From Chondrosia reniformis (taxonomy: Eukaryota > Porifera > Demospongiae > Chondrillida > Chondrillidae): a DNA stretch of 64,000 nt. Where the stretch lies: the NCBI GenBank assembly GCA_947172415.1, contig OX359195.1, positions 5,121,501 through 5,185,500 of the forward strand. Reading direction: 5' to 3'. Made by a program: the position numbers and the translations under genes. Under the pieces are notes generated by a model, which worked only from the letters and a program-made list of their open reading frames with translations, had not been told where the DNA came from and made no database searches. Shown in pieces: positions 14,401 to 61,738 of this stretch (position 1 is its first letter; the number at the start of each line of letters is the position of its first letter).

Positions 14401-15842
14401 CATGTATCATAAATGCAGTGTAACATATATATAGTCCTAAGATAGCTCTTACATCCCACTCTACAACTTTAGATGCTTATACATACTTAGATCTTAATAA
14501 GCTAGCTCACTACTATATGATCAGGTATACAAACAGGAGATGTGATTGATTGGAAAATAGAGCCATGAAATAAATTAAACTAACAGTAAAGTTGCAAACA
14601 ATTGTCCTTACATACCTTGTCTAGTGGCGAGTTTTCTTCAAAGACTTCTGGTGGAATGAATTCTGAAGTATTTACAGTGTTTTTTTCTAATTTACAGTTT
14701 GAAACATTTTCGGACTGGTCTGTCTTGTCTTCTGTAGGTACAAAATCCAAATTTGGCTTCTGCAGAGTTTCCTTGGCAGTTGTCCAGGATGTCTGATCTT
14801 GGGAGCTACTATCAAGGTTTGGATCGGAACTGGCTATTGGAGAAACACCTTCGGAATAATTAATGATGTGACTATCTTCGGTTTCTGCTGTGTCAGGCTC
14901 CATGTCTTTTGTAGATTCAGGTTTGGAAACCTCCTCAGATTCGGATTTGGGGATCTCCTTGGATTCAGATTCGGGGATCTCCTCGGATTCAGGTTTGGAA
15001 ACCTCCTCAGATTCAGATTTGGGGATCTCCTCAGATTCAGATTTGGGGATCTCCTCAGATTCAGATTTGGGGATCTCCTCGGATTCAGATTTGGGGATTG
15101 CCTCGGATTCAGATTTGGGGATCTCCTCAGATTCAGATTTGGGGATTGCTTTGGATTCAGATTTGGGGATCTCCTCGGATTCAGATTTAGTGGTTTCTTG
15201 GATAATTGATGTACCTGGTAAATTTAATTTAGCACTTACAGTTTTCATTGCATGTGAGGTGCCTTCTATCTGCTCATTACCACTGCCACCTTTCTTTCCC
15301 CAAGTAGGATCAATTTGAAATATACGCTTCATTGCCAAATCTATTTCCGAAATCTTGGCCGTCCAGCTTTGCGTGTCCAGGAGCACATCCTTGGAATGAA
15401 GAAACGGATGAACCTGCTTAGGGTCGTTGATGTGAAGATAGACCAGTCCAAGAGCTATTTGATGGAGAAGAATAGCTTTTTTCCACAGTGGGACATCTTC
15501 TTTGGTTCTCTCCTCAATGAACCGCTTTAAGCTAACTGACATTCTCTCCATTACCAAAATTGGAAAATCTGAATCGGCCTTATAAACGAATCCATAAAAG
15601 TGGACTAGGTGAGGATGGCGAAGCTTCTTCCAGACTTTGCTTTCTCGAATGAAATCGCTCAGGATCGTACCTTCGATATCGAAATGAAGCCTTTTCAATG
15701 CGCAGGGCACCCCGTGCCATTTTGCTCCAAGAACAGCACCAAAGCTTCCTCTTCCCAGCTCCTTTCCGATGTCTTGGACCCCAGTGAGTATAAAATGATG
15801 CTTCTTAAAGTATTTCTTAACGGCACCTAAATCAATCGACAT
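11483..15842 (-). CDS. Pseudokinase with acidic insertion, coiled coil and two C2HC zinc fingers
   Basis: Exons: 15842-14616, 13881-13438, 12821-12744, 12558-12475, 12333-12276, 12183-11483. Phases agree, giving about 863 aa. The kinase N-lobe is intact: glycine loop GRGSFG (30-35), ALK lysine (K50) and a helix-C glutamate. The catalytic loop reads HPFLHSKDVLL where HRDLKxxN is expected, and DFG is replaced by EID in SEID (165-168), so phosphotransfer is unlikely. Between that point and the APE-like FIPPEVF (395-401) lies an insertion of about 215 residues with about eleven IPKSESEE-type repeats. The C-lobe continues in exon 2 (VDVFSWGCLA). A charged coiled coil follows, then two fingers of the form C-X2-C-X14-H-X3-C. 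A signalling scaffold role is inferred. Two donors three bases apart are possible for exon 4. Confidence 0.85.
14931..15190. repeat. 24-bp coding repeat in pseudokinase exon 1
   Basis: About eleven units of 24 bp (plus-strand form GGGGATCTCCTCAGATTCAG plus four bases) encode the acidic IPKSESEE repeat. Because the unit is a multiple of three and lacks stops, both strands stay open here, which creates false antisense reading frames. Confidence 0.9.
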
Positions 15843-16270
15843 GTCGCGTACGTAGAAATATAGCGATCAAGTGCACTCGTGAAACAGTCCGTCTTAAATA
15901 AAAGCAATGCAGAAAAACCTTCTACGGAGCTCCACTGTTGACAGTCTAGTAAAGAGTATTATAGAGTCGACCATACGTTCCAGAACTGAATCACTTATTC
16001 CTCAGCTACACTGGTATGCACTGTGTAAACAAAACTCGTATACCATGTAAATGGCCCATCCCTCCATCATTGACATAACCACGGGTGTGAACGACACGGT
16101 ACGACTTGTTATGCAAAACCTTAAATTTAAATAAGTTCTGATAACAAAATTTCAGGGAACTGAAACATATGCAATAAAATAGCTGCATTCAGAAGTAAGC
16201 ATGTATAGTACAGTACTTAAATAAGGTATTGAATGGGATTAAGAGGAATGGAAAGTGATTATCAAAAGTT
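15843..16270. other. Short intergenic stretch between DCAF7 and the pseudokinase
   Basis: It separates the DCAF7 stop codon from the pseudokinase start codon, and must hold the DCAF7 3' untranslated region and the pseudokinase promoter. I see no TATA box at a convincing distance and no coding exon. Confidence 0.6.
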
Positions 16271-20828: not shown

Positions 20829-22120
20829 TTATTCCAATTGGGGTACTACGAGTGAATCTAAAAACTTGACAAGATGATCAGTTGAGAAGTCAGGAGTTTC
20901 TGGAGCACTTGAGGAATATCTCAGTTGCAGTGGAGGTCCTTCAGAGGTGTCCCTCTGTAGGCCATCACAAGAAGACACATCCATTGCAAAATAACAGCAA
21001 GAGCTACTACTACTGGGAGGACAGCCCATGGGCAGACCCTGAGGATGACTGGATTGGTGTCTTGAAGAGGAGGAGTGGCTATATTTATCTTGGTATACAT
21101 TCTCAGTAGCAAGCTCAGACTCACGACAGTTTATGTCATTAGCATTATTAGTTGCGAACATAGGGATGGGTATGTTGCAATTGGAGGAATCATGCATATG
21201 ATTAAAACCATTCAATCTAGGTTCTTCCCATAACATACTGGAGAGAGCACTGAGGGCCAGATTGCCATCTTGGTCTGATGATGAAAAGTGATAGTTGGGA
21301 ATACTCTTTATAACATGCTCACACTCCAAAAGCGCTTCCTCCAGAGCTTCTTGTTTTTTGACTGCCAGTTTCACCTTGAGCTCTGAATTAGTTGTTAAGG
21401 TGAAGCACTGAACAGGGGAAATCGAATGTCTTCTCCTCTGTTTAGCTTTGTAGCTTTTAGCTTTCTGTATAACTTGAGAGGTCGCACTTGAGTCAGCCAG
21501 ACCACTATCAACATTGCTGTCTAGCCCTATGGTTGTATTGGCACTTTTTGGGGAAGGAAAAGTGGATGAATCTGAAAACATGAAATGAAAATTTTAGGAA
21601 TCATGTGTCTTTACTTGCACAGCTGGTGAGAAACATAAGGAAGAGCATGCAGTCAATACATGGGAATTAAACCATGCACCAGTGCTTGCCACTTAGTTAG
21701 GAGTGTCACAGGTGATGCCTTATTTACATCACGCATGCCTTCCTCTACAAATATACTAACTACTAATTTAAGTATCCTTTGAATGAAAAATCTTTTTGAG
21801 CATCTAAAAAAGCAGCTTTGGTTAAAGTCTTTTGGGAATTCAAACAGTCAAAGATGTACCATTCAAAAGATAAGTTTGACACAGTTAAAAGGAAGTGTTA
21901 TTTTATTACTTTTCATTTATTTTACGAGGTCAACAAAAGTTAACCATTGACTGCATCTGGTGATATACATACCATTTTTATGTTTGGAATTGATAGGAGT
22001 AGCTAAGATAGCAGAGAGTAACTTTGGGGGAACAGGATTCTTTGCCCTCCATGTCTTCCACTGTTTAGCAGTGTAGTTCCTCTTTGGAAAAGAATTGTTG
22101 TTACTTTTAGATTTGCTCAT
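20829..22120 (-). CDS. Unknown protein, paralogue of the gene at 28404-29556
   Basis: Two exons, 22120-21973 and 21571-20829, joined in phase 1 (GT-AG), give 296 aa. The ATG at 22120 (MSKSKSNNNS) is the first in frame. The N-terminus has RNYTAKQWKTWRAKNPVPPK and LLSAILATP. The middle has a basic patch KAKQRRRHS, probably nuclear localising, then a charged helix (ELKVKLAVKKQEALEEALLE) running into CEHVIKSIPNY. The rest is Ser/Pro-rich. Its paralogue has the same exon layout, intron phase and motif order. The helix behind a basic patch recalls a dimerisation segment, but the pattern is not a clear bZIP. A nuclear or transcriptional role is a guess. Confidence 0.8.
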
Positions 22121-28360: not shown

Positions 28361-28425
28361 GAAATTAATAGGGGAAAAGTGAAATTAATAGGGAAAAGTG
28401 AAATTAATAGGGGAAAAGTGAATTA
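28361..28425. repeat. 18-19 bp tandem repeat overlapping a stop codon
   Basis: Four copies of GAAATTAATAGGGGAAAAGT or close variants. The stop codon and last residues (SLFPY) of the gene at 28404-29556 lie inside this array. Confidence 0.85.
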
Positions 28426-29556
28426 TATAAATCCGGTATGTGTTCAGTTGATTGTCCATATGTTTCAGGTATACTTGAGTTACTATGTCCCTGCGGTGAG
28501 CTTAAGGTACCCATGTCAACCGCAGTACAAGGTACACTGTAATGAGGCTCTCTAATTGGAGAATACGTAGTTGAAGGGAGGTACTGCTCTTGTTGAAGAT
28601 CTTCCAACTGATGGTGATTCTGCATGTAATCAACGGGCGAGTCTGCAGTTGGTGTACAAGTTGAGTAAGTTTCTTTACCAAACCCATAGTTGTCTGTAGC
28701 TGAGAAGGGTAAATAATTAGAGGTAGGTTTTTCAGAAAGATTAAAGTAGTCGTTCATCCCGGGTTCTGTCCATATGGCACTTGACGGAGCACTGTAACAT
28801 GGAGGTGTTGCCGTGCTCCATGGCATAGAGGTGGGAGGGGACTGGGAATAGTTTGGGATGCTCTCTATTGCATGCTCACACTCCTTCAATGCCTTCTCTA
28901 GAGCTACCTCTTTTTTGACTGCCAGCTCCACCTTAAGCTCATAGTTATTCAGTAAGGTGTGATAATAAACTGGTGTCATCTTATGACGTTTTCTTCTCTT
29001 ATCAATCAGTTGTCTGTCCGGCATGTCTGTTAATGATTTGCACCTTTTCACTGGTCTAATATCATCCATGCTGCATGCTGAAAGACTAGCAGGGGTGCTT
29101 GCAGAAGATGGAGATGTATCATTTGAATTCAAACCTGTAATGATAACAAGAGATACATTCAAATCAATAATTTCTATACAGAAAGTAATAAATAAATTAT
29201 ATATACACATGCAGCATATATGTGATATATGTAATCACTTCTGACCAAAGTCCTTGGTTGTGAGACTAAAGTCCTATTGAATATAGCATAATAGGTATAT
29301 AGATATTTTTAGGATTATACTTACCATCTATATGAAGATCACTGACAACAGGAGCTTCTAGTAGAGCTGTTAGAGTGGCAGGGACAACTGGACGACGCTG
29401 CCGCAGTTTCTTCCACTGTTCCACTGTGTATTTACCATTCTTAAGTGCACCTGATTTTTGACCATTAGAAGAGTAGAGTTCACCATTCGTAAACTCGTTA
29501 CTATGCACAGGATCCATAGTAGAGCATTTGTATTTAGGTGATCTTAGAGCAACCAT
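28404..29556 (-). CDS. Unknown protein, paralogue of the gene at 20829-22120
   Basis: Exons 29556-29325 and 29134-28404 join in phase 1 to give 320 aa. An acceptor at 29562 just before the ATG and a donor after 30032 (TTATAG, then GTGAGT) point to a 5'-untranslated intron of about 470 bp. N-terminal motif KYTVEQWKKLRQRRPVVPA is followed by LTALL (an LXXLL motif, residues 62-66). Then come a basic patch DKRRKRHK, a charged helix ELKVELAVKKEVALEKALKE and CEHAIESIPNY. The C-terminal half is rich in Pro, Ser, Tyr and Gln, like a transactivation region. Exon layout and motif order match the paralogue. No catalytic motif is seen; function unknown, nuclear role inferred. Confidence 0.82.
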
Positions 29557-43463: not shown

Positions 43464-45012
43464 TTAGAGTAAAATGTTACTGAAGTCATCACTGAAGAAT
43501 GATGCATCCAAAGAATTGCCCCAGTCTGAAAAGTTATAACTTGAAAGAACATCTGCTTGAGGAAAAATGCTTGGTCTGGAGAATGTCTGGAATTCCCACT
43601 GAGGTGCAGTTGGCTCGAAAATGTTTCTTTTCTCCTTAATTCCACCCTCTTGAATATCAGTCAATGGACTCTGGATCAAATCAGCTTCAGGTTCACAGCT
43701 GTCAAACAGTGTTGATGCCGAATAAGGTGGTGGAGGTATGTAGGATTGGACTGGTGGTGGTGACAGGAATGGTGTCTCCTCCTGAGGGAAGCTGCTCGCT
43801 GGTGATCCAAAGGATGGAAAGGGGGAAAGTGACTGACCAAAGCCAGAGTCTTCACTCTGTTTAGATGGAGTTGGAGAAGAAGATCTGGGAGACTTTTCTG
43901 ATGATGTCTTTCCATTCAACTTCTCATAAGCATCTCGTACTGGCATGTCCGTCTGTAATAGCTGTGCCAAGAGTGATCCTTCACTCTTCTTCTCCTGTTT
44001 TGGTTGCTCTACAGGTGCATCTTCCAGAATGGTGTCCAGTGTTGACAGGGAGGATTTCCTTGATGAAGGCTGATACAGGTCGTTATCCAAGTCATCCAGA
44101 AACCTCTCCCAGGGTTCTGGTTCAGGACTGCTCATGACAACTGGTGGGGACCCGTTGACAGAGCTGGGCAGAGAACTGTAATCACTGAATGAATCTACTG
44201 TCTCAATTGCATGCTCTGAATTCTTTCTGACAAACTGAAAAATCGGTCCTTCTGGTTCGGCTTTTAGTGGCTCCTCGAAACTTATTCTTGGCTTCTTGGC
44301 CAAGGTAGGACCACAGGTAGTAGAGTATTGCTTGCTGGGGACCCAATCACTACAGGGTGTTGTACAAGGAGTGTCTCTCTTCACAGACTGAGACTTGGCT
44401 ATATAAAATTAGAAAGTTAAGTGACAAATTGATCCCCACAATTAGGTCAAATTACTGTAGTGATATAAATGTAACGATTATCACTATAGGAACACATGGC
44501 TAGATATCCAGCAGCAGCCCATCTCGCCGTCAGTGACAGAAACACCGACTAGTGGTACGTCCTGACGCAATTTGCAATTTACAAGTCATTATCAACTGGT
44601 CCAACGTGTAGTATCACAAATTAAACTACCTTCTTAAGTCGAAGTACAAGGTCTTCGCGACTCCGATGTGCTGTGTCAGTTCGCACGTTTATACGAAGAA
44701 CAGACTAATTAGGTCAGCACTCACCGGCAGCCGGCAGTCTCAGGACTGGCAAGCTCTGCGAGGTGTTGTTTAGCAGCGTGTTTAACAGCAAGGAGACGGA
44801 CGGAAGGTCATCTTGTTGACTCTCGGCGGCCCCATCAACTTGCGCTGACTTTCTATTCTGACGATTCGTGAGCTACACATAGAAAAGGCAACACAATTCA
44901 TCTAGAGAAACGTTTCCGCTTGCGCGTGGAACTACACACATTCCCACACAAGTGGTAAACTTACGAGTTTAGGGTGAGGTTTGTTAGAACTACGAATGAA
45001 CCCACGGCACAT
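43464..45012 (-). CDS. Unknown LXXLL-containing protein, paralogue of the gene at 60311-61738
   Basis: Exons 45012-44965 (48 nt), 44872-44725 (148 nt) and 44398-43464 (935 nt) join in frame to give 376 aa. The start MCRGFIRSSNKPHPKL is conserved in the paralogue. Motifs: DDLPSVSLLLNTLL (with an LXXLL at residues 46-50), a basic LAKKPRI, NSEHAIETVDSFSDYSSLP, PEPEPWERFLDDLDNDLYQP, a second LXXLL in EGSLLAQLLQTDMP, long Ser/Pro-rich stretches and an acidic hydrophobic C-terminus FFSDDFSNILL. No catalytic domain or membrane segment is seen. LXXLL plus acidic/hydrophobic ends suggest a nuclear coregulator; this is inference. Parts are almost identical to the paralogue at DNA level. Confidence 0.87.
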
Positions 45013-45881: not shown

Positions 45882-47733
45882 TTTGGTTTGGTAAGCTTAT
45901 TTAAACAGGGAAAGCCTTTAGCCAGTGGCTACTATTCTAGGCACCCTGTAAAATACAGTAATACAAAAGGACAAAAACATAACAGTTCTGAGATTCAAAA
46001 TAAGTAAGAGTCATGCAGATTTAATAAATATAAAAGGAAAGGATCATGTGTGTGAGTCAAAATAATCGTGTGCAGTCCTTGAGAAATTCTTTAGTGATCC
46101 AGAATCACGTAGTGAGGCAGGTAGAGACCGCCACAGGGATGCACCTCGAAATGAAACTGCATGCTGTCCAAATGTCGTCCTGACCGCGGGAAGGTTGATG
46201 AGGTTATTCCTTCGTGTGTTGTGGTGGTGGGAGGGGAGACGGAAGAGGGATGAGAGATAGGGGGGAGCAAGTGAATTGAGACACTTGTAAGTTAGCTCCG
46301 CAAGATGAAGTCTCCTACGGTTGTGCAGTGAAGTAAGACCGAGTTCCTTCCAGAGGGCAGAGGAAGATGAGAGACGAGGGCGATGGAGGGCAAGACAGCA
46401 AGCATAGTTGAAAAGGGACTGGAGATGATGAGAGTCATGTTGGGTACAGTTGTCCCATACCACATCGCAGTAGTCAACCAAAGGCAAGATATAGGACTTG
46501 AGGTAGAGGACCAGGAGGGATTGGGGAAGAAACCAGGATAAACGCCTGAGGAGGTTCACACCACGTCCCATCCTAGAAGCAACGTGGTTGATGTGGTCAG
46601 TCCAGGTCAGAGTGTCGTTAACAAGGACTCCAAGAAGCTTGAAACTGGAGACCTGCTCAATTTCAGAGCCAGAGAGGTGGATGTGGAGGGGTGGTGGATC
46701 AACTCTGGTTCTTGAGGAACGAATGAGCATGCACTTGGTCTCATCAGCATTCAGCTTCAGCCCGTTATTGGTCATCCAGCTACTGGCAATGTCAAGACAT
46801 GATTGAAGTGAGGAGCTCAGGAGGCTGCAGTTGTTGCCGACAAGAGAGATTGTAGTGTCGTCAGCAAAGAGGACAGTAGAGTCAGGAGGGAGAACACTAG
46901 GCAAGTCATTAATAAAAAGCGAGAACAGAGTGGGGCCAAGAATTGAGCCCTGCGGAACACCAGAGGTTGTAGAGCCTGGAGAAGATGTGGAGTTAGACAC
47001 ACGAGTAACTTGGGAGCGACCAGAGAGGTAGGATTTGAACCAGGTGACACTGGAAGGATCAAAACCAAGGCAGTGGAGCTTGGAGAGCAAAAGTGGATGA
47101 TTCACGGTGTCAAAAGCCTTCGAAACATCAAGAAAGAGGACTGCGACATACTGCTTCTGGTCAAGTGCTTGGTACCATTTGTTAGTGCAGTGTAGAAGAA
47201 GGGACTGAGTTGAGTGCCTGGAGCGGAAGCCAGATTGATAGGAGTAGAGTAGATTGTTGGAGTCAAGATGTTCAGTGACCTGATCTTTTACATGCCACTC
47301 CAGTACTTTACTGCACACGGGAAGGATGGAGATTGGCCGGTAGTTTGAGAGACAGCCATGGCTGCCACCTTTGTGGATAGGTCGGACTGAGCTGCACTTC
47401 CAGGAGCTGGGGAAGATGGACGAGGAGATGGAAGAGTTGATGATGTTAGACAATGGATGAGAGATGATGGATTTAGAAGTTTTTAGAGGAAGAGAAGGGA
47501 TGTTGTCTATGCCAACAGCTGAGCTGACTATGAGGGAGGCTAGGAATCTCTCGCACCGATCAGAGGTCATGCATGACAAGGACAGGGTTGAGGAGGGGGA
47601 GTAAGAATAAGTGGAAGGAGGAAGGGATACATTTGATGAACTGACAGAGACAAAGTGATCATTGAGGGAGTTGGCAATGGAAGTGTGATCAGAACCAAGA
47701 GGATCCCAATTGGAAGAATGGGTATGGGTTTTT
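45882..47733 (-). mobile_element. 5'-truncated non-LTR retrotransposon with intact RT domain
   Basis: A minus-strand frame is open from about 47733 to the stop at 46044 with no internal stop. It contains a reverse transcriptase with YRPISILP, FLDVSKAFDTVNH, the GVPQGSILGPTLFSLFINDL block, catalytic FADDTT and a LGVLVND-type motif. A conserved C-terminal RR-N-rich region (NTRRNNLINLP) follows. The endonuclease and 5' part are missing: upstream of THTHSSNWDPLG the frame meets a stop. The 3' untranslated end contains AGGGTGCCTAGAATAGTAGCC and finishes in an (ACCAA)n tail, as in CR1/L2-like clades. It lies between the LXXLL gene and channel gene A. Confidence 0.9.
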
Positions 47734-48201: not shown

Positions 48202-51200
48202 CTATTCATTTTTGTACCGGTAAAATCTGATTTGAAACTTGCAGGTTACAGATCCACACTGAAGCAGTACTTCATTGGGGCAATCTGGTTTATCTTGACT
48301 GCAACACCCAACTTGGTACTTCAACCAATTGCACAATTCTCTACACCAATGGACCTCGGTACTAGGCTCACTTTGCATACTAATAACTTCCTCTTGCAAA
48401 GCTGTAGCATTCTGTGGTTCACGTTCATGATTAAATGTAATATTCCACTTAATCCAATCACTACAGAAAGAAGGCGTACACTACATAATATTTACTGTAA
48501 GTTACATAGTTTGGGAAGTTGGTCATCCATATTTAAATCTTAGAATGTAATAACCTAAACTCTTATACTAAAGACACACACTGCGTGATATACATATTTA
48601 TTGCAATATTAATGTAACATTGTAGTAGTAGTAGTGAATTGAATCATTGTGATTGAAACACCTTGACGAAGGAACACACTTGTCACTGTCAACTAAGCAT
48701 CAATAAAAATCTCTTACATGTGCACCAATCAGTATATCCAACTGTCAAAACTACTCTAGAAAGTTCTTAATTAGATCAAAACACTTAGAATAGAACAAAA
48801 CACCTTGCCTACATGCACGTCAGTCTAGCAAATAAGCTCACTCTGTTACATATTAAAGTGACTCTAGTAGTATTCTTGTGATATAATTTAAGGTTAAAAC
48901 TATCTTGCAAAAGGAAACTGTAAAGAACTGTATGACTACATGGTAAAGTACACAGAGAAGAAGACAAGAAGGAAAGACTTCTGGGGTCACTGATAAATGG
49001 TGGAATTCCTAAAAACAGCTGGCTGGCCCAGGAGACAACCTCAGCCAAAGCTCTATAGGTTTCCCTATGCATGGAAAACAGTCTATTATATTCCATTTTT
49101 CTTAGTCTTTAAAGAAAAACAATAAAAATAGGTAAATTATGGTATAAAATTAATTATTATAAAAATAGTGCAATTGAAAGACTGATATTGAATCTCAACT
49201 GATTGTTCCCTCCACTATTAGAATGTTCATACATAATCCATCTTTACTACCTAATACTATTGTGATTTACCCAATTCCATTATTAGATTGCCCATACAAT
49301 CATCATGTTTAAACAAGAAAAAAGGAGAGATATATACGTAATTTAACTCACTTTCCATGTGGTTTAAATTCATCAAATTTATCTTCCACAGACATTCCTT
49401 CGACTGACTTTGGCCTGAAGGTTATTAGTTTTGTCCCATTTTTTATTAGTCCACACAATTCCATAAGGTGGAGTAGGCTACTTATAGTGGAATACCTCCC
49501 AGCTACAGACTGGGACTTGGCTATTGGACCCACTATTATTGCAGTAAACGGACGATTATAAGAAAATCTAAATCCATCAGCAACTTCACTTTTTCTTAGG
49601 CACTCAACAAATCTGTCATAGTCTTTATCTGTTGAATTCTTATGTAATATACATTGCTTACCAAGTTCAAGCCTGAACTGAAATATAGGATTAAAAATCA
49701 CTCATATATGTACGTATATGAAATGATACAACCAAATTTTACAGGAGTTGTATACTGATCATAACTAGAGTGATACAAAAATAAATCTTTAGGACTTAGA
49801 TTAACAACAGAATAACAGACCTTTTTGAGTAGGTTGTCTGTACCGATTCAAACGTATGATGCAATTGCTCTTGGCATCTTCTACTACAAGGGTGTTTGAA
49901 TATCCTGCCAGGATGATGTCACAGCTAAGAGCTTGCATCATCACACCTTATGGCAGTACATTAGTGACATCTGGCTTGGACAACTGACTCAAAAAGTTCA
50001 CACAAACTTTATGAAAGTAGAGGTAAAAAACACTACATGCATTATACTGTATGTATAGGTACATACACCTATAAAAGTATAGATACACCCATTTACATCT
50101 AGGTACACCCATTTACATCTAGGTACACTTATTTACATCTAGGTACACCCATTTACATCTAGGTACACTTATTTACATCTAGGTACACCCATATGCGTAT
50201 ATAAAGGTTACCTATATAGTTGTATGCAGGTCACTTATAATTAAGACTTTTACCCATATACATAGTTATGCAAGTCACTTAAAACGTTTAGGTACGTAGG
50301 TTACTTAAGACTTTCACCTATATAGTTGTGCAAGTCACTTAAGATCTTTACCTTGTCAAGAATTTCATTACTTTTACTGAAGAGGTTGGCACTTGCTTTC
50401 ATTACATCCATTACAATGTATTTCTCAATAAGGAAAGGTTTTCCATCACATTCCAGTAAGTGAGGGTCAAAGTTCACACTCATGACCTACATCACAAACA
50501 TAGTTCAAACAGGCAATCTATGAAATGGAATATTGTGAAATCATTTTGCCTGTAAAATTAATCAACAATGGAAATACAGTAAGCTGGTGGTGTTCAATGC
50601 TTGGGGCACTTCACTGAATTTAATACAATTTTAAATTTACATGATAATAGCCAGATTTGGCAAGCGATAACTTTCAAATAATAAAGATTAGCACACTCAC
50701 AGTAAGTAATTATATCATAAAACTCAAGTTTGCCTTTAAATAGGCCCGCACCAACAATGCTTATCTTGCTGTTAGAAGGTAAAGAAAGCTTGTTCCAAGT
50801 TACCTTACATTACGGTAAGATTGTCGAAAGAGATATTTGTTGTAAAGTACAGACAGTTTATTCCAACATTGGTGCTCCACATATAATAAATAGCAATGTT
50901 GCAGGCCACTAGGCTCGTAACACAAAATCAGTACAAATACATACATACATAATAGAGTAAGGATTCCTTCTAACATACGTACATGTACCTACCTTTGCTG
51001 CAAGCCTGCCAAGTGTTGTACGATAACCAATTGTCCCTAAGCTTACATCCAAAAAGAATGTATTGCCTAGTTCACTGGGAATTTCTAATTCCTTACTTTT
51101 TAAGAGATTTGTTAAAAATGCACTCATTTTTGCACCCATCTGTAGACACAAGACAAACCGTTATTGAATACAACAAAGTTTTTGAATCAAATAGGAAGCA

Positions 51201-53018
51201 TCCTTTACCATATATGTATATACAAGACTCTTGACTTCCAGCTGTGGTACACCTTCCTGCTGCGGTACACCTTCCTGCTGCGGTACACCTTCCTGCTGGG
51301 GTACACCTTCCTGCTGTGGTACACCTTCCTGCTGCGGTACACCTTCCTGCTGCGGTACACCTTCCTGCTGCGGTACACCTTCCTGCTGCGGTACACCTTC
51401 CTGCTGCGGTACACCTTCCTGCTGTGGTACACCTTCCTGCTGCGGTACACCTTCCTGCTGCGGTACACCTTCCTGCTGGGGTACACCTTCCTGCTGCGGT
51501 ACACCTTCCTGCTGGGGTACACCTTCCTGCTGCGGTACACCTTCCTGCTGGGGTACAGCTGGATTGACCCTTCTCTGACGCCTTTTTTTGAAGCATTTAA
51601 AACACCCTTGAGAGTCTTGAGACTCATCGTCATCCTCATCTTTCATAAGCTCCTGATCCACCACTGTTGGCAAGTATAATGCACATATATTCTTTTATAT
51701 TAAGCTGCATGCTATTGTATATCACATTTCATTCAACATGTAACAATGTATTACAGTGTAACAGCAGCTATATATGCACACATATGGATTTAATATTTCA
51801 CATGACTTACAGCAACAAGTCTGTTCAGTCGAATTGGTTCATATATATAAAAGGTATTGTAGATTCAAACAGGGGACCCACCTATTTTCGTAAAATTGTC
51901 TTACCTTTTGTTACAAAATCCTTCTGTAAAATTTGCCTAAGAACTGTCATGTTTTCATATTCCCTTTGTATCTTCTCTTGTATGATCTGCTCAATTAGGA
52001 CTTCCCTTAGCACATATGCATATCCTGCATCGTGTTTAACTAGCTTCAGATACAAGAAATGCAAGTCACTGGTAATGCGGTACCGGCAGTTAAATCTTGC
52101 AAAGAACGGCTTTGGAACATAGAAATTGTGGGAGATTCCAGAAGCCAGTGAAAAACGTGCCGCATCATTCCAGCTAAGATGATCTTCATGATTCTTTATG
52201 CACCAAAAACAGCCGTACAGAGATGCTAAAAGTACTCCTCCCAATAGGATAAAATTGCTGTACCACACAGCTCTGAGAACATTTAACGTAGACAGGACGC
52301 AGTAAATATCTCGGTCTAAGGGCCACCTCTCTGGGATACTGCTGTCATTGAAGGCCCTTGGACAGGAAAATGGCGGTGAATAGTCATTGAATACTAAGCT
52401 GCAGATGCATATCCACGCAATGACCAGACCCAACTCTAGAAATAAACCGAATGCGTAGAACAGGTATGTTCTCGCTGTTTCTCCGAGTGCTCCCTTAAGT
52501 TCCGAGGCTACGATAAAGTTTTTAAAAGCAAAGGTACCCGTTTCGCCCTCTCTGTGCCGATCTAGAGACGTAGACAGAGCGGTGAAAAATCTAAACCTTC
52601 CAGCAAACCAGATTGACCAACTGTAATATGGTAAGGCAAGCGTAAATCCCTGGATCAAGAGGATAAAAGCAAAGAAGTCGGTTGGTGCTGTGTACTGGCT
52701 GCAGTAGCTGTTGATGTAGGCCCCCTGATCTATAGTGTAGTCATCTGGCGTCATGCACTGCACCGATATTCCTCTTATGGAAGAGAGCACGTCCAGAATG
52801 GTCAGCAAAAACATTCCGGCCACACTGTACTTGATGATTTTGTCCCAAAAGAAGTCTTTCAAATCTTCCGGTGCCCTCTCTTTTTTATCATAGCCCAGAT
52901 CGCGAAGAATCCCCTCGGAACTGACTAAGTCTTCCCTACTCCTCTTCACCTTATCATTAAGGCTCTCAGTAGGCCTTTCCTCCGTGCGAATATTTGCTTG
53001 CTCTGTTCGGCCAGACAT
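48202..53018 (-). CDS. Innexin/pannexin/LRRC8-superfamily four-TM protein, copy A
   Basis: Six exons: 53018-51905, 51663-51209, 51139-50993, 50486-50352, 49677-49352, 48460-48202; phases agree, 811 aa. TM segments lie near 62-82, 114-136, 183-208 and 250-273. Loop 1 has C88 and C106 (VQCMTPDDY, then YINSYC), loop 2 has C219 and C240 (FSCPRAF, then IYCVLSTLNVLRAVWY), the layout of pannexins and innexins. The post-TM4 stretch SDLHFLYLKLVKHDAG resembles the LRRC8/pannexin cytoplasmic helix. Exon 2 encodes GCFKCFKKRR and about 17 VPQQEG repeats. Exons 3-6 encode an unrecognised region of about 290 aa, ending with a Cys-rich LCNW...EVLLQCG segment. Likely a plasma-membrane large-pore channel; gap-junction function cannot be judged. 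The start matches copy B. The donor of exon 2 is the least certain border. Confidence 0.85.
48955..49090 (+). repeat. Dispersed about 250-bp repeat family, partial copy
   Basis: GGGGTCACTGATAAATGGTG, GGAATTCCTAAAAACAGCTG, GCCCAGGAGA and CCAAAGCTCTATAGGTTTCC follow the family order. It lies in intron 5 of channel gene A. Confidence 0.6.
50083..50195. repeat. 20-bp minisatellite in channel gene A intron 4
   Basis: Units of TACACCCATTTACATCTAGG, about five to six copies, alternating ACACCC and ACACTT variants. No unique spacers, so not a CRISPR array. Confidence 0.9.
51241..51558. repeat. 18-bp coding repeat (VPQQEG) in channel gene A exon 2
   Basis: About 17 units of 18 bp (plus strand CTGCGGTACACCTTCCTG) encode VPQQEG. 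Third-position variants CGG, TGG and GGG mark subtypes. With no stop in any frame, all six frames are open here. The copy number is probably polymorphic. Confidence 0.95.
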
Positions 53019-53401
53019 TTTATTTCCTGGAATTGCGGTGCACGTCCCCAGAAATATATATATAATATACAATCAGGATTGCGCAAATTCCTACATTGTG
53101 CGGAACATATACGTAAAGGTGTCTAGTAATGAGAACAAATAGACTAATAGTCTATTAATAAAATAATAGATAAAATTATACAATTATTAGGCCAGTTCTA
53201 CTAAATATCCATTTTTATTATTAAAAAGGGTGGTCATTCGTTTTTTACATCATCTACTGCCGTATATATATACTCTAATGCGTCCTTATATTCCATAATA
53301 TATATCAACCACAAGAATTGAGAAAACCAGATCATGTCAAAATACAAAAAATATAATTAAAGATATAAAATATAAAATTTGTACTGTTAGGTTTCTGACT
53401 T
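53019..53401. other. Short spacer between the two channel genes
   Basis: Only 383 bp separate the start codon of copy A from the stop codon of copy B. It is AT-rich, with TATATATATAATATAC about 40 bp upstream of the copy A ATG. It should hold copy A's promoter and copy B's 3' end signals. Confidence 0.6.
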
Positions 53402-56400
53402 CTATGTTGTCTCTCTCTCTTTGAATTCATAAAAATTAAGTTGAAACATACAGGGTACAGGTCCACACTGAATCAAAACTTCATTGCCCTTCAGTTTAAA
53501 ACATTTCTTGCAATAGCAAAACTGGTACCTGAACCAGTTACACAATGAGTTAGAGCAATGCTTAGAGTCTTCATTAATGTTGGTAGACTCATTTACATCA
53601 ACAAGTACAGCTCTATCTCTGGATCCCTCTCCATCTCTAGTTACAGCTTCATTATTGGATTCCTCTGCTACTCGATAATAGTTATTTTGATCTCCATTTT
53701 CATGAATAAAGGTAATTTTATTCCAGTCATCCCAGAAACTATCTGTATCAGACCTGTAATGTATATAAACTTTCCTTAAGAATTGGAGAAAATTGAAAAG
53801 CAGCTGCTGAATTCAGCAAGCACTTCTATAGACACATTAACATACGTAGAGTATAGATTAGGTGACTTCTTTATAACTGTTATTGTATTTTGCATGTATT
53901 TCATCTATTTTTGCAAACTTTATATCTTTATTATTATTATTAATTATTGTTCACACTGTTAATAAGAAATAGTAATAACGAGAAAGACTTTGTCCTGCAC
54001 TGTGGATTTCTCGTTAACCAGTTCCTACTGTACTATATTGTGATTTAGATTGCCCATACAATCATCATGTTGAAACAAGTAAGAGGAGCTACATAAATTA
54101 ACTCACTTTCCATGTGGTTTAAATTCATCAAATTTATCTTCCACAGACATTCCTTCGACTGACTTTGGCCTGAAGGTTATTAGTTTTGTCCCATTTTTTA
54201 TTAGTCCACACAATTCCATAAGGTGGAGTAGGTTACTTATAGTGGAATACCTCCCAGCTACAGACTGGGACTTGGCTATTGGACCCACTATTATTGCAGT
54301 GAATGATGAGTTGTTGTATCTGGTTGGAAATCCTGTGGCAGGTTTTCCATCTCTTAGACACTCTACAGCTTCATCCTCATCACTTTGTTCTTGTACTAGA
54401 TACTCCTTAACAAATTCTCTCACAAACTAAAGGTAAGGAATGAAACCCCTTCTGAATCAGTTTAATTATAAAATGCAATTAGAAAGTCGTGCCACCCCCT
54501 GCACTACAAATACTTGTACACCTTGTTTGGTTTATAGGTTTGGTTTATATTTAAAGTTATAACTGATTCAAAACTAACAAAAGGACAGAAACTTAAGGTT
54601 AACGAATGCCGCCATTTGCAATTATGTATAAATAAAGACTTATGATACTTGCCTATGAACAAATATTTTCAGGAAATAAAGTCACGTGGAGTTAACATTT
54701 GTTTTTAAAGTGCAGGTTGCTTATGCATAACTTACTATTGCCTATATATAGTTGTATGCAAGACTATGCAAGACTTTTATCTATATAGTTGTATGTAGGT
54801 ATATAATTGTATGCAGGTCACTTTTACGTACCTTGTCCTGGATTTCATTACTTTTACTAAAGAGGTTGGCACTTGCTTTCATTACATCCATTGCAATGTA
54901 TTTCTCAAAAAGGAAAGGTTTTGCATCATACTCCAAGAAGGGGTCAAAGTTCACACTCATGACCTACATCACAAACAAATTACACATACTACATCAAAAT
55001 CAACACTTTTAAGAACTTTAATAATTTAAACACATTAAAATAACTGTATGGACATTCGTCTCACAATTGGTCATACCTATCAATTTATCTTTACAATTAG
55101 TATTTGTTGCTATGAAGCAATGCAACAAATTTATATTGTAATTACAGAAAATCATCCCATGTAGCAAGCATAAAAACATACCCACAATTTTATCCTAATA
55201 TTCTCATTAAAAGTGGCTCTATACTATGTACAGTCACATGCATACATATGTAATCAGCTCTGCATTGTATATCATAAACGTATACAAAGATGCTCATCGT
55301 ATTACTTCTCCTGCAATCCGGCCAAGGGTTGTGCGATAGCCAATTGTTCCCAAGCTTACATTCAAAAGGAATGTATGGCCTAGCTCAGCAGAGGGGTGTA
55401 ATTTGAAACAATCTAATTTTAAAAGGTTGGTTAAAAATGTATTCATTGACTTTCCCAATTCCTGCAGATAAAAAATAAACCAATAGAATATTTGAAACAT
55501 CAACTGGAAAACAACTTCACACATACAGGTAGTCTAGTCGAACTCTGTTGCTGAGCTGAGCTCTGTTGCTGAGTCGAACTCTGTTGCTGAGCCAAGCTCT
55601 GTTGCTGAGTCGAACTCTGTTGCTGAGCCGAGCTCTGTTGCTGAGCCGAGCTCTGTTGCTGAGTCGAGCTCTGTTGCTGAGCCGAGCTCTGTTGCTGAGC
55701 CGAGCTCTGTTGCTGATCAGGTCTTGAATGACTTCCTCTTTTAAGACAAGGAAAACATCCTTTAGATTCCTCAAGTACTTCACTATCATCGTTTCTCATG
55801 AGTTCCGCTAATGGGATATGCATTATACAAATCATAATTACATTCACTGACAAAAACATACATATTTACTATCTAACTTTGAAATCATACAGACAATGTA
55901 TGTACATACTGCCTAGTCAGTTAGTTAGTTATAATGATATTTAGACAAGAAAGACCCATCAGCTCTGCAAACAGCTGGTCTACCTGGGTGTCCTGTACAT
56001 TACATTAGAAGTAGTTCGAGTTTAAAAGGCACCCCCAACAAATTCAAACCACTTGGCTTATATATAAGGTTATGAACAGGAAGCCATACGTTAACATAAT
56101 TTCTGAAAACAATATAGGGCGCCGTAGAAAAGAACAAAAAGGTAAATTAGTCATAACTCCTAATTAATCTGGGTTACTTAACAAATGAATAAATGAATAT
56201 TAATTAAACCATTTAGTAATCAGTGACAGCCCCTTGAAGAATTTAGTCAGCCATTTTACTATAGTCAATCAATGCCTTGGTGCTATTCAGCACTTTCCCT
56301 AGGACAATTCTCTATGTAGCCAACAGATGTACGTATTACCATACGTAACCTCTTACGCAGGTGACCTTAAGCAGGTGACCACTTACGCAGGTGACCACTT

Positions 56401-57863
56401 AAGCAGGTGACCACTTACGCAGGTGACCACTTAAGCAGGTGACCACTTACGCAGGTGACCACTTAAGCAGGTGACCACTTACGCAGGTGACCTCTTACGC
56501 AGGTGACCACTTACGCAGGTGACCACTTACGCAGGTGACCACTTACGCAGGTGACCACTTACGCAGGTGACCACTTACGCAGGTGACCACTTAAGCAGGT
56601 GACCTCTTACGCAGGTGACCACTTACGCAGGTGACCACTTACGCAGGTGACCTCTTACGCAGGTGACCTCTTACGCAGGTGACCACTTACGCAGGTGACC
56701 ACTTACGCAGGTGACCACTTACGCAGGTGACCACTTACAGCATGAACCTTCCTGTTACACTTACCACCTATTGTTAGAAAATCCTTCTTGAAAATTTGCC
56801 TAAGAACTGTCATATTTTCATATTCCCTTTGGATCTTCTCTTGTATGATCTGCTCAATTAGGACTTCCCTTAGCACATACGCATATCCAGCATCGTGTTT
56901 AACTAGCTTCAGATACAAGAAATGTAAGTCACTGGTAATGCGGTACCGGCAGTCGAATCTTGCAAAGAACGGCTTTGGAACATAGAAATTGTGGGAGATT
57001 CCAGAAGCCAGTGAAAAACGTGCCGCATCATTCCAGCTAAGATGATCTTCATGATTCTTTATGCACCAAAAACAGCCGTACAGAGATGCCAAAAGTACTC
57101 CTCCCAATAGGATAAAATTGCTGTACCACACAGCTCTGAGAACATTTAACGTAGACAGGACGCAGTAAATATCATGGTCTAAGGGCCACCTCTCTGGGAT
57201 ACTGCTGTCATTGAAGGCCCTTGGACAGGAAAATGGTGGTGAATAGTCATTGAATACTAAGCTGCAGATGCATATCCACGCAATGACCAGACCCAACTCT
57301 AGAAATAAACCGAGTACGTAGAACAGGTATGTTCTCGCTGTTTCTCCGAGTGCTCCCTTAAGTTCCGAGGCTACGATAAAGTTTTTAAAAGCAAAGGTAC
57401 CAGTTTCGCCCTCTCTGTGCCGATCTAGAGACGTAGACAGAGCGGTGAAAAACCTAAACCTTCCAGCAAACCAGATTGACCAACTGTAATATGGTAAGGC
57501 AAGCGTAAATCCCTGGATCAAGAGGATAAAGGCAAAGAAGTCGGTTGGTGCGGTGTACTGGCTGCAGTAGCTGTTGATGTAGGCCCCCTGATCTATTTCG
57601 TAGTCATCTGGCGTCATGCACTGCACCGATATTCCTCTTATGGAAGAGAGCACGTCCAAAATGGTCAGCAAAAACATTCCGGCCACACTGTACTTGATGA
57701 TTTTGTCCCAAAAGAAGTCTTTCAAATCTTCCGGTGCCCTCTCTTTTTTATCATAGCCCAGATCGCGAAGAATCTCCTCAGTGTTGGCTAAGTCTTCTTC
57801 TTTACTTCTCCCCTTACTAGGAAGGCTATCTGCCTCACTAGGACTATCAGCTCGGTCAGACAT
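53402..57863 (-). CDS. Innexin/pannexin/LRRC8-superfamily four-TM protein, copy B
   Basis: Six exons: 57863-56765, 55807-55527, 55461-55306, 54963-54832, 54426-54107, 53738-53402; all phases agree with copy A, 774 aa. The TM part (EILRDLGYDKKERAP up to IQREYENMTVLRQI) is almost identical to copy A, including the four loop cysteines. The first 30 residues, the exon 2 repeat (about ten QQQSSA units), the N-terminal half of exon 5 and exon 6 differ strongly. Exon 6 starts FWDDWNKITFIHENGD and ends with a Cys-rich LCNWFRYQFCYCKKCF segment and EVLIQCGPVPC, parallel to copy A. The two proteins could co-assemble; this is inference. A dense tandem array fills the start of intron 1. Confidence 0.85.
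55534..55715. repeat. 18-bp coding repeat (QQQSSA) in channel gene B exon 2
   Basis: About ten 18-bp units (plus strand GAGCTCTGTTGCTGAGCC) encode QQQSSA or QQQSST. The period equals that of copy A's repeat, but the sequence is unrelated. Confidence 0.93.
56350..56740. repeat. 16-bp tandem array in channel gene B intron 1
   Basis: About 24 units of CACTTACGCAGGTGAC. On the transcribed (minus) strand each standard unit reads GTCACCTGCGTAAGTG, so it contains the 5'-splice-site hexamer GTAAGT; a minority variant has TTAAGT. Each unit also has CAGGTG (an E-box) and GGTGACC. It begins about 25 bp past the real exon 1 donor at 56764. Units are contiguous without spacers, so not a CRISPR array. Confidence 0.95.
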
Positions 57864-60310
57864 TTTCCAGGAAACGCGGAAACTGCATCTACCGTATTTT
57901 ATTTGTAAAATTAAGGGAATGTGTCAATGTGATAACACTTGAACCTTCCCTAAAATGTGGTTGCCCTTTGGCGTTGATGTTTTATGTACATATAAACCAT
58001 ACTCTGCTCAATGGCATATCAAGAATATTGCTTTTCAAATCTGAATCAAAACAAGTCAAGCTTAAGGACATTGGCAGAATGCAGATTTTTGGCCACTGGA
58101 GAATTGAACCTGAATTGTGATTTGGGTTTATAGCCAGTCTCTTTGTAATATAATAAATATCCAACTTTCATTTTTGTGTCAATATAATGTTTTTTTTTGT
58201 ATATACAGTACACTTGGCTCCCTGTAGTGAAGTTCCAGTATATGTAATAATTATGCCTGGTACAGTATTACATTGAAAACCTCAGGACTCCCAGTAACCA
58301 CTATAATGTATAAAATTTTGTTCAATGTTACTTTCATGATTTTGATGTATCTATATATACATATACCTGTGTGCACTTGTATTTATATTCATATGTATAT
58401 TCATATGTATATTGCATCTAATCTCTAGTATAAATGGTTTACATATAACATACATACGCTACAGTCTACATATAGTATATATTGAATCCATGCTTGGGAT
58501 TTTATATAAATATTAGCATCAACTGCAGGACCGTTCCAGTAACTCAAAAGGAGAAGGGTCTCTTTACAACCAGAAGAACTTGTTTAAGAACTAGCTACAT
58601 TGTTTGACCATTTTTTTATAATTTTAAAACCATGTACATGTATATTTTATATTTCAGAATTGTCAAACAAAAATGATCATTGTGCAGTGGTTAAATATAT
58701 ACACGAATTCATTTTATGAGCTTGGAATAATAAGATACATATACATTAAAATGTAACCCAGTTCATTGCAAATGCATATATACATCTATGTCAGCATTCA
58801 GTATACTCTTGTAAAATATTGCATAACAAGAATTATAAAAATCCAAAGGCCATGTCCCCTTAGATTGCTGCAACGTTGCAGGATACAGATATGTATCATA
58901 AATACCATTCGTATTGTAAGTAGAGAGTAACTAAGAAAAAAGGGAAGTAAATGAAAAAGAAAAAAAGGAAAAATGAGGAAAGTAGATGATAAAGAAAAAA
59001 GGAAGAGACAAGAGTATAAGAAAGTAAGTAAAACAAAAAAGGAAAAAATATACGATTTTTTCTGCATGTGTACTCCAGGGAATAAGTAGTGTACCAAGTC
59101 CCTTTCAATGACTGCAATAGGACCTATATAATGTATTTTATAGGCAGACTTTGTTCTTCGTTTTCTACCAAAAAAAAAAACCTTAATTTAATGTTTAATG
59201 CCAATTCTGTTTCTAGGTCCTTCTTGGACCCATATGTTAGTTAACTACAGTATTTTGTAACTTGCACTGTATATAAACTGTTTTAGGTCTATAAACTCAC
59301 ACTATTTCCAAGACATATTGATCAGTAACTCAATCATTTACGAGCTCAGGTGCTTTCCATTACTTCTAATGTTTCCTGTTCTAGAAGTATAGATCTAGAC
59401 TATAAAATGGGTAGCTACCTACATATGTATACCTATATATGTGCATTGTATAAACAACCATTTTGTACAATCCTTATACACTAATGAACATTTAGCATGC
59501 ATATGGAATATATAGTGATGGTTTAGGGCTATGCAGCTGAACTTATATATTAGAGCTACAAAGCCTAATGTACAGCCCATTATGACTTTTACCAGGGCTG
59601 CCTATCAGAGAGATGTCTGCTCTACTCAGGTGACTGTTTACAAAGGTTTTACTGTAAGTATATATATATTTATCAGAATTATATAAAGTATGCACAGTAA
59701 TAATACAATGTAAAAAATAAATTTTTGGATTTGACCTATTGCAGGTTATCCAATTTGCTAATCAATGTTGAAACACGTGCACATGTTTTGGCATTTAGAA
59801 CAACATACATAAGCGACTGCAAATATGTAGTTGAATATAAAAATTAAATCCCTGTTGATATATATATTATGTGATAATTGATAATACATTGAACAGGGTA
59901 CACATGTTCTTTTAACCAACCTACTTAGATCATTATCATGATCACACTTACAGCAGTGCATGGCTATTGAAGAACCAGTGTAGCTCATGCATATTGATAA
60001 TAATCATATAAATGTTGATTAGACAAAGGGTTCTCCTCTTTGGAGGTAAACTGCAAAGGTGTTCATTTCAGAGTGATTTTTAAGCAAAATAAATAGCAAA
60101 TTATAATTTCTTTGAACAAAAAAATACAAAAACAACTTCACATTACATTACAAGCTGTACAGTATACATAGATAATTACAAGCCAGTATTTATAGTTCAG
60201 AACTAGAACATTGGCTTATAAGGAGCTTAAGTTCATGGAGGTTCTTAGGTTTGTTTGACAATTAACAATGAAATGCAGCAGTTAATGATACTATATTTGC
60301 CAGTGTTCCA
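57864..60310. other. Intergenic: channel B promoter side, 3' flank of the LXXLL paralogue
   Basis: No exon recognised. It contains a purine-rich strand at about 58917-59050, a dispersed repeat at 59125-59300 and many TATATA/TACATA microsatellites. The first few hundred bases should hold the promoter of channel gene B. Confidence 0.55.
59125..59300 (+). repeat. Dispersed repeat, copy also at 25770-25960
   Basis: Shared blocks GACTTTGTTCTTCGTTTTCT and TTTCTAGGTCCTTCTTGGAC, followed by GTAACTTGCACTGTATATA as at about 26.67 kb. Family unknown. Confidence 0.55.
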
Positions 60311-61738
60311 TTACAGTAAAATGTTACTGAAGTCATCACTGAAGAATGATGCATCCAAAGAATTGCCCCAGTTTGAAAAGTTGTAACTTGAAAGTACATC
60401 TGTTTGAGGAAAAATGCTTGGTCTGGAGAATGTCTGGAATTCCCACTGCGGTGCAGTTGGCTCGAAAATGTTTCTTTTCTCCTTAATTCCACCCTCTTGA
60501 ATATCAGTCAATGGACCCTGGATAAAATTAACTTCAGGTTCACAGCTGCCAAATACAGTTGTCAGAGGAGGCAGGGGTGGAGGTTGGCGGATGTAGAAGG
60601 AAGATGGTACTGCAGCATGAGTCCTCCTACTTGACTGCTCAGAAGAATCGCTCGCTGGTGATCCAAAGGATGGAAAGGGGGAAAGTGACTGACCAAAGCC
60701 AGAGTCTTCACTCTCTTTAGATGGAGTTGGGGAAGAAGATCTAGGAGACTTTTCTGATGATGTCTTTCCATTCAACTTCTCATAAGCATCTCGTACTGGC
60801 ATGTCCGTCTGTAATAGCTGTGCCAAGAGTGATCCTTCACTCTTCTTCTCCTGTTTTGGTTGCTCTACAGGTGCATCTTCCAGAATGGTGTCCAGTGTTG
60901 ACAGGGAGGATTTCCTTGATGAAGGCTGATACAGGTCGTTATCCAAGTCATCCAGAAACCTCTCCCAGGGTTCTGGTTCAGGACTGCTCATGACAACTGG
61001 TGGAGACCCATTGACAGAGCTGGGCAGAGAACTGTAATCACTGAATGAATCCACCATTTTGATATCATTCTCTGAGCCTTTTCTTTTAGCGACATACTGG
61101 TAGTTAGATCCTTCAGTTACTGGCTCTCTACCAATATTTATTCTTGGTTTTTTGGCCAGAGATTCTTCGGGTACTGTCGGATTTTGTCTGTTTCCACTTT
61201 TACAGCACAGATCTAGAGTACCAGAAGGACCCCTCTTTTTGAAGAGTGAGTTAGCTTTATCTGGAAGGAGATACGTAGAGAGTATATATCAATCACTGAT
61301 TTAGGTTTCTATGCTAAATAGACTAAGTTAATATTTGTATGCAGTCCGCGTATGAAATTCATGCTAAAGTTCACCCAAAAGCTTACCGACAAGCGCTGCG
61401 GGCATCCTCAGGTCTGGTAGATTCTGTGATGTTTCAAACGTGTTCAACAGCAAGGAGACGGACGGAAGGTCATCTTGTTGACTCTCGGCAGCCCCATCAA
61501 CTTGCGCTGACTTTTGGTATTGGTAACTTTGGCCCTTCAAAAAGAGAATATAAAGCGAATAAAATCACATAGTCTTGTAAAACAGATTACATATACAAAG
61601 TTTTGACTATCTCCTCCAATCAGATTCTAAGGTGCTAATATATACGTGTAATCGTAGCTATAGGCAATGTCAATCGTAATTAAATCTTACCAGTTTTGGA
61701 GTGGGCTTGTTGGTGTTGCGAATGAATCCTCGACACAT
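60311..61738 (-). CDS. Unknown LXXLL-containing protein, paralogue of the gene at 43464-45012
   Basis: Exons 61738-61691 (48 nt), 61534-61387 (148 nt) and 61260-60311 (950 nt), with the same phases as the paralogue, give 381 aa. The start MCRGFIRNTNKPTPKL is conserved. The first LXXLL is lost (LNTFE here), while EGSLLAQLLQTDMP is kept. The segment SENDIKMVDSFSDYSSLP replaces SEHAIETVDSFSDYSSLP, and a region near the middle (FYIRQPPPLPPL) differs. The C-terminus FFSDDFSNILL and even the first 45 bases after the stop codon are nearly the same. Nuclear coregulator-like composition; function unknown. Confidence 0.87.

Follow-up and report, generated by a model that had tools for sequence, protein, structure and literature searches.

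Pannexins have four transmembrane (TM) helices and two cysteines in each extracellular loop, and the innexin INX-6 of C. elegans matches the Pfam family Innexin (PF00876), carries its loop 1 cysteines 17 residues apart and closes TM2 with a tryptophan. A YYQWV-type motif before TM2 is the innexin signature, and it is present in the INX-6 sequence aligned here. Sponges are described as being without innexins and pannexins, or as animals in which none were found, in the passages drawn on here from several papers (PMC6391747, PMC8769644, PMC10280926, PMC9949713, PMC9816575, PMC4685580); gap junctions are likewise reported, in the text available to us, as not identified in sponges. According to the relevant section of one of these papers, a survey with BLAST and HMMER found no members in Porifera (PMC6391747), and in parts of this literature, debates on early animals and the origin of nervous systems draw on the lack of innexins in sponges and also in placozoans (PMC9816575, PMC4685580, PMC6391747). 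Here, a tandem pair of genes, A and B, is described which almost certainly belongs to the same superfamily; both lie on the minus strand in a window of 64,000 nucleotides from chromosome 7 of the demosponge Chondrosia reniformis (assembly GCA_947172415.1, contig OX359195.1, positions 5,121,501 to 5,185,500). A first reading of the letters without database searches (the sequence-only reading) had taken them for pannexin/innexin-like channel genes and had pointed out that sponges are generally reported to lack such genes, with which the literature agrees. No earlier report of a sponge member was found among open-licence papers, judged by titles and abstract openings; one may exist elsewhere.

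When the genome (117,379,552 bp in 15 contigs) was searched with gene A, 16 matches were obtained. They represent 13 genes, spread over chromosomes 3, 4, 6, 7, 9 and 11, since two of the genes each accounted for a pair of partial matches and a weak match with internal stops (E 0.008) was discarded. Protein searches yielded 20 additional relatives from ena, jgi and lgn records, whose aligned parts share 30-49% identity with gene A. None of these 20 carried an NCBI, UniRef or nr label (8000 candidates scored), and we infer that they come from sponges. The family set consisted of 33 members, i.e., the 13 Chondrosia genes and the 20 relatives. Genes A and B have a DNA identity of 97% across 1032 bp of exon 1 and of 94% across 266 bp at exon 5; within a core of 317 codons, 13 synonymous and 5 non-synonymous codon differences were counted, and 14 of the 21 base changes were in third positions.

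The membrane part agrees well with what the sequence-only reading had seen. Four hydrophobic segments were located by hydropathy at residues 60-89, 110-136, 182-216 and 245-276 of gene A, two cysteines are present in each extracellular loop of both window proteins, and the motifs YINSYC, in loop 1, and CVLSTLNVLRAVWY, at loop 2 and the start of TM4, were both found. The arrangement of four TM helices with two extracellular loops is supported by hydropathy, by a structure model and by an eightfold higher density of glycosylation sequons in the loops (see below). A helix following TM4 had also been proposed; a long helix was indeed predicted at model residues 317-369, but its confidence is low to moderate, with values of the predicted local distance difference test (pLDDT) below 50 at residues 329-343. 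In both window proteins the loop 1 cysteines have the spacing seen in innexin-6 and pannexin-1 (17 residues), and this C-x17-C arrangement is kept in 28 of the 33 members, the exceptions being spacings of 18, 18, 14 and 21 and one truncated protein. At least two cysteines occur in loop 1 of 32/33 members (P0021 is cut short) and in loop 2 of all 33. A tryptophan closing TM2 is a further feature that the sponge proteins have in common with INX-6. Pannexin-1 and gene A share the loop 1 pattern C-x-[ST]-P-x-x-[FY]-x-x-x-Q-x-x-[FY]-[VI]-[ND]-x-[YF]-C. At the site of residues W74 and R75 of pannexin-1, which are named in a PDB title and which we take to lie at the outer constriction, 20/33 members have R-D-Q, the same as PANX2; the window copies have I-D-Q.

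The relationship was also assessed by comparisons of profiles. A search of the PDB with a profile of 14 family members reached 54 distinct sequences, and 53 of these were pannexins, LRRC8s or innexin-6; pannexin-2 was the top match (E 8.9e-11) and the sole unrelated sequence appeared at E 1.3. With hhalign, the family profile gave a probability of 96 with pannexin-1 (E 4.3e-9, 219 columns) and of 95 with the single sequence of innexin-6 (E 2.8e-8), against 9 with the single sequence of LRRC8A (E 0.0037), a result which, as far as sequence profiles can tell, favours pannexin and innexin over LRRC8. With a small profile of pannexins and innexin-6, 29 of the 33 members, both window genes included, scored higher than any of 1023 control sequences, of which 990 were block-shuffled and 33 reversed; thus, the likeness exceeds chance. 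A database search with a profile containing pannexin-1 and innexin-6 returned mostly vertebrate pannexin-1 among the best 120 of 586 matches, which is no independent evidence, because both proteins were in the profile. The Pfam Innexin model matched 14/14 members scanned at E<=1 (best 9.2e-9), and in a search of the genome it found four places on chromosome 3 above its cut-off. An Innexin match of the window proteins, as suggested by the sequence-only reading, held for gene A (26.6 bits, cut-off 25). Pannexin_like (PF12534), the other family suggested, was unconvincing, with 1/14 members at E 0.2. The YYQWV-type motif was absent from an alignment of five members and from 15 further alignment rows, and it is also absent in pannexin-1; since PF12534 was unconvincing and innexin-6 has a YYQW motif that the sponge proteins lack, the name innexin in the strict sense is not supported for them. 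Pfam scans of the two window proteins and of the 14 members gave no match to connexins (PF00029) or CALHM (PF14798). Genome searches for LRRC8, connexin and CALHM were empty, and since the positive control also remained without a match, they are uninformative on absence.

A fold search with the predicted model returned protomers of pannexin, LRRC8 and connexin, so that the structural comparison was in line with the sequence-only reading and the predicted protomer would have the fold common to these channels. No innexin chain was among the 50 matches listed in VIA-align, which is not evidence against one. The wording "pannexin/innexin or a sister branch" was pitched at the right level. Neither of the two outcomes named there as refuting it came about, given the Innexin match of gene A, the fold matches and the sponge origin of the DNA. 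Membership in the innexin/pannexin superfamily is close to certain. The best reading is that the family represents a separate, new branch of this superfamily, in animals which the literature describes as having no members of it. The sponge proteins differ from pannexins in sequence (about 18% identity between pannexin-1 and gene A) and by an additional, predicted cytosolic C-terminal domain, and from INX-6 by the missing YYQWV motif and by nearly universal sequons in the loops.

These sequons (N-x-S/T) were found in the extracellular loops of 13/13 Chondrosia genes and 19/20 relatives (32/33). Their density was 2.40% in the loops; for the cytosolic loop and C-terminal segment it was 0.30%, and 12/33 members have a sequon there. 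When the loops were shuffled, on average 17.6 and at most 27 of the 33 sequences had a sequon, compared with the observed 32, although these counts are not independent, because the sequences are related. Pannexin-1 and gene A both possess an NDS sequon in loop 2; an assignment to the same site was not kept, as the two stood opposite each other only in a non-significant alignment and were four residues apart in two others. In chordates, according to the part of the study cited, N-glycosylation prevents gap junctions (PMC8769644). In predicted topology, each protein of the family combines four membrane helices with an N-terminus in the cytosol, two extracellular loops that contain cysteines, and cytosolic parts that are helical. 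By analogy with pannexins, the proteins would be expected to assemble into ring-shaped large-pore channels of the plasma membrane. Since sequons for N-glycosylation are almost universal in the loops, the undocked state is the most likely one; such glycosylated hemichannels would let out ATP or other small molecules. On contig 5, two matches to the P2X receptor family exceeded the cut-off; they contain internal stops, as expected if introns are read through; released ATP could thus have a receptor in this organism and could act on it. A glycosylated large-pore hemichannel is somewhat more likely than not, and rather more probable than a gap junction. For the explanation as a whole, a branch of the superfamily forming glycosylated, ATP-releasing hemichannels, we would estimate a probability of about 65%.

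Several observations weigh against this explanation. Gene B, at 22.7 bits, remained below the Pfam Innexin cut-off, and neither window gene was among the four places above the cut-off in the genome search. Four members (chr4_1198k, P0031, P0021 and P0022) scored under the best control. The search of the PDB with a single sequence reached pannexin-1 at E 0.92 only, a value which may also explain why the survey with BLAST and HMMER missed members in Porifera. In the tree, the sponge rows were on one side of a branch with a support of 60/83, and the branch order was not fixed; INX-6 and LRRC8A entered as single long rows, the tree program warned that long branches had met, and chr4_802k and 11/20 relatives were left out. 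The structure model was only moderate (mean pLDDT 62.8), and by structural score LRRC8 ranked above pannexin. Across the whole alignment of 372 codons, with its dissimilar ends, the ratio of non-synonymous to synonymous substitution rates (dN/dS) between genes A and B was 0.46, which indicates weaker constraint than in the core; five other pairs of paralogues had values from 0.14 to 0.76. Finally, some innexins with sequons still form gap junctions, according to the part of the study on glycosylation cited (PMC8769644).

This last point is of importance for the possibility that the proteins are true gap-junction innexins which dock between sponge cells, so that sponges would possess cryptic gap junctions. 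The cysteine spacing of loop 1, which is the same as in innexin-6, would suit such a role, as would the innexins that form gap junctions in spite of extracellular sequons, and mixed channels could be made from 13 paralogues. Docking is argued against by the loop sequons in 32/33 members, and all the chordate innexin homologues surveyed also carry loop sequons and form no gap junctions, as stated in the part of that study cited (PMC8769644); we therefore consider docking innexins unlikely. A sponge branch of the LRRC8-type volume-regulated anion channels (VRAC), in which another domain had been swapped for the leucine-rich repeats, would be compatible with the ranking of the structural scores. 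No such repeats were found in the sponge proteins, the C-terminal parts are without a Pfam family, Pannexin_like was reached by a single member, the first loop of LRRC8A is laid out in the alignment unlike the common C-x17-C loop, and the 9% probability for LRRC8A in hhalign stands against 95-96% for innexin and pannexin, which makes this origin quite improbable.

Convergence, i.e., an unrelated membrane protein with four helices, could be proposed in view of an identity of just 18% to innexin-6 and pannexin-1 and the E-value of the single-sequence search, but it is very hard to reconcile with profile E-values of 9e-11 and 4e-9, with the common C-x17-C loop motif and with the 29/33 members which exceeded the best of all controls. 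The sequence-only reading had also named an origin from an animal known to have innexins as a possible flaw. Nothing in favour of this was found. The DNA is from the sponge Chondrosia reniformis; the contig corresponds to chromosome 7 in a chromosome-level assembly checked by Hi-C, as described in the portion of the genome report cited (PMC12181767), the family is spread over six chromosomes, and gene A is equidistant from pannexin-1 and innexin-6, with 18% identity to each. The probability of contaminant DNA from an innexin-bearing animal is thus practically negligible. A separate branch of the innexin/pannexin superfamily remains the preferred reading.

A C-terminal domain of about 215-320 residues follows the membrane part in both window genes and in P0017, a protein of 617 residues from a JGI record of 2136 bp, and traces of it were found beside four paralogues on chromosome 3. 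These traces (at 2202370, 1742510, 2221005 and 2288077; E 0.002 to 0.15) lie 2.9-6.1 kb downstream of the paralogues, on the same strand; for 7 of the 11 paralogues outside the window no trace was detected at E<=1. One trace (L047, chr3:2212290-2212478, plus strand) is situated upstream of the nearest plus-strand gene and downstream of none of the 13. The spliced C-termini of genes A and B gave no Pfam match up to E 10. Residues 419-477 of P0017 contain a short Gly-rich motif with weak likeness to several methyltransferase families (NCBIfam, E 6e-4 and 1e-3; Pfam, E 0.045; PDB, E 0.07 and 1.4); the best rows of this PDB search were plant receptor kinases (E 0.03), on a different stretch. A degenerate domain of the Rossmann type may perhaps be present, which on such sequence likeness is a lead, not a result. 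In the model of P0017, nearly all of the C-terminal domain had a pLDDT below 50, and the fold search with this model covers the membrane part only.

The tandem duplicated pair proposed by the sequence-only reading for positions 48202 to 57863 was confirmed, and the outer ends of the predicted gene models fall on these same positions. Gene B is upstream (57863 to 53402) and gene A downstream (53018 to 48202), each with a predicted model of six exons, GT-AG borders and a reading frame that is kept. Exon 1 in both genes is one long open frame comprising the entire membrane part, with five exons after it; the corresponding minus-strand open reading frames (ORFs) extend over 51882-53072 (gene A) and 56703-57923 (gene B). 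The downstream exons of both genes are supported by P0017, because it joins the membrane part and the C-terminal region in a single frame.

In gene B, exon 1 (56768-57863, minus strand, as are all exons of the pair) runs from the start codon and the cytosolic N-terminus through the four TM helices to the helices after TM4, with loop E1 between TM1 and TM2, the cytosolic loop between TM2 and TM3, and loop E2 between TM3 and TM4, as judged from the ORF, Pfam Innexin and the splice model; a donor after 56765 would be possible instead. The splice model places in exon 2 (55527-55807, possible alternative donor after 55521) an acidic/basic linker with QQQSSA repeats. Exon 3 (55306-55461) holds the start of the C-terminal domain (LLNVSLGTIGY) and was placed by weak likeness to P0017 (E 1.9), its expected position and splice sites. 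The domain continues in exon 4 (54832-54963; DNA conserved with gene A, splice model) and in exon 5 (54107-54426; IIVGPIAKS...FDEFKPHGK; homology to P0017 with E 5.6e-4, splice model), and exon 6 (53402-53753; 57 bp conserved with gene A, splice model) encodes a Cys-rich tail and the stop codon. The predicted product has 778-781 residues across four choices of donor.

In gene A, exon 1 (51905-53018) comprises the start codon, TM1-TM4 and the helices after TM4 (ORF, Pfam Innexin, structure model). Exon 2 (51209-51663, splice model) encodes a linker with QQEGVP repeats, and its 3' end is uncertain, since an 18-bp minisatellite in the coding sequence leaves 22 in-frame GT candidates as donor; the one with the best consensus was chosen. 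Exon 3 (50993-51139) contains the start of the C-terminal domain (FFLDVSLGTIGY), with weak likeness to P0017 (E 4.3) at the expected place and with splice sites; exons 4 (50352-50486; VMSVNFDPHLL; DNA conserved with gene B, splice sites) and 5 (49352-49677; homology to P0017 with E 4.3e-4, splice sites) continue it, and exon 6 (48202-48460, splice model) encodes the Cys-rich tail and the stop codon. The predicted product has 811 residues at the longest. Minisatellites were observed at 51235-51560, 55536-55716 and 56345-56738, inside and between exons of genes A and B; in the models of exon 2, the one at 51235-51560 is read as QQEGVP repeats and the one at 55536-55716 as QQQSSA repeats. In another copy of the family (L014, chr4:802163-802915), the frame enters an NLQLS repeat after TM4, and its dN/dS with its neighbour is 0.76; this copy may be decaying, or the repeat may be intronic.

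Other features were found in the window, all on the minus strand. A retroelement lies just downstream of the channel genes, with an open frame of 562 amino acids and a reverse transcriptase domain at 46044-47732 (RVT_1, E 7.5e-36). The pair is flanked by two near-alike open frames without a Pfam match, one on either side (43464-44408 and 60311-61288), as if they were part of a larger duplication. Two further alike open frames (20829-21593 and 28404-29234) share the motif ELKVxLAVKKxxALExALxECEHxIxSIPNY and gave no Pfam family above the cut-off, and a protein kinase domain at 14580-15866 (PF07714, E 5e-19) leads into a KSESEEIP repeat.

A more far-reaching proposal would be that sponges were never without the family, of which demosponges would then keep a deep, sponge-specific sister branch, with at least 13 genes in this species and fused to a cytosolic Rossmann/methyltransferase-like domain. 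The ancestor would have been a glycosylated hemichannel for ATP release, perhaps gated by a ligand, and gap junctions would have arisen later; we regard this as speculative and rather doubtful. Unnexins, which are homologues of innexins in kinetoplastids according to the part of the report cited (PMC9868820), bear on the age of the superfamily. If the sponge branch is real, the family was present in the last common ancestor of animals, whichever phylum branched first, unless it was transferred. ATP and glutamate coordinate contractions of sponges (PMC11883242); the portion of that paper available to us names no channel for ATP release, and the words "pannexin" and "hemichannel" are absent from it. 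The family of genes A and B would provide direct candidates for the release of ATP in sponge contractions.

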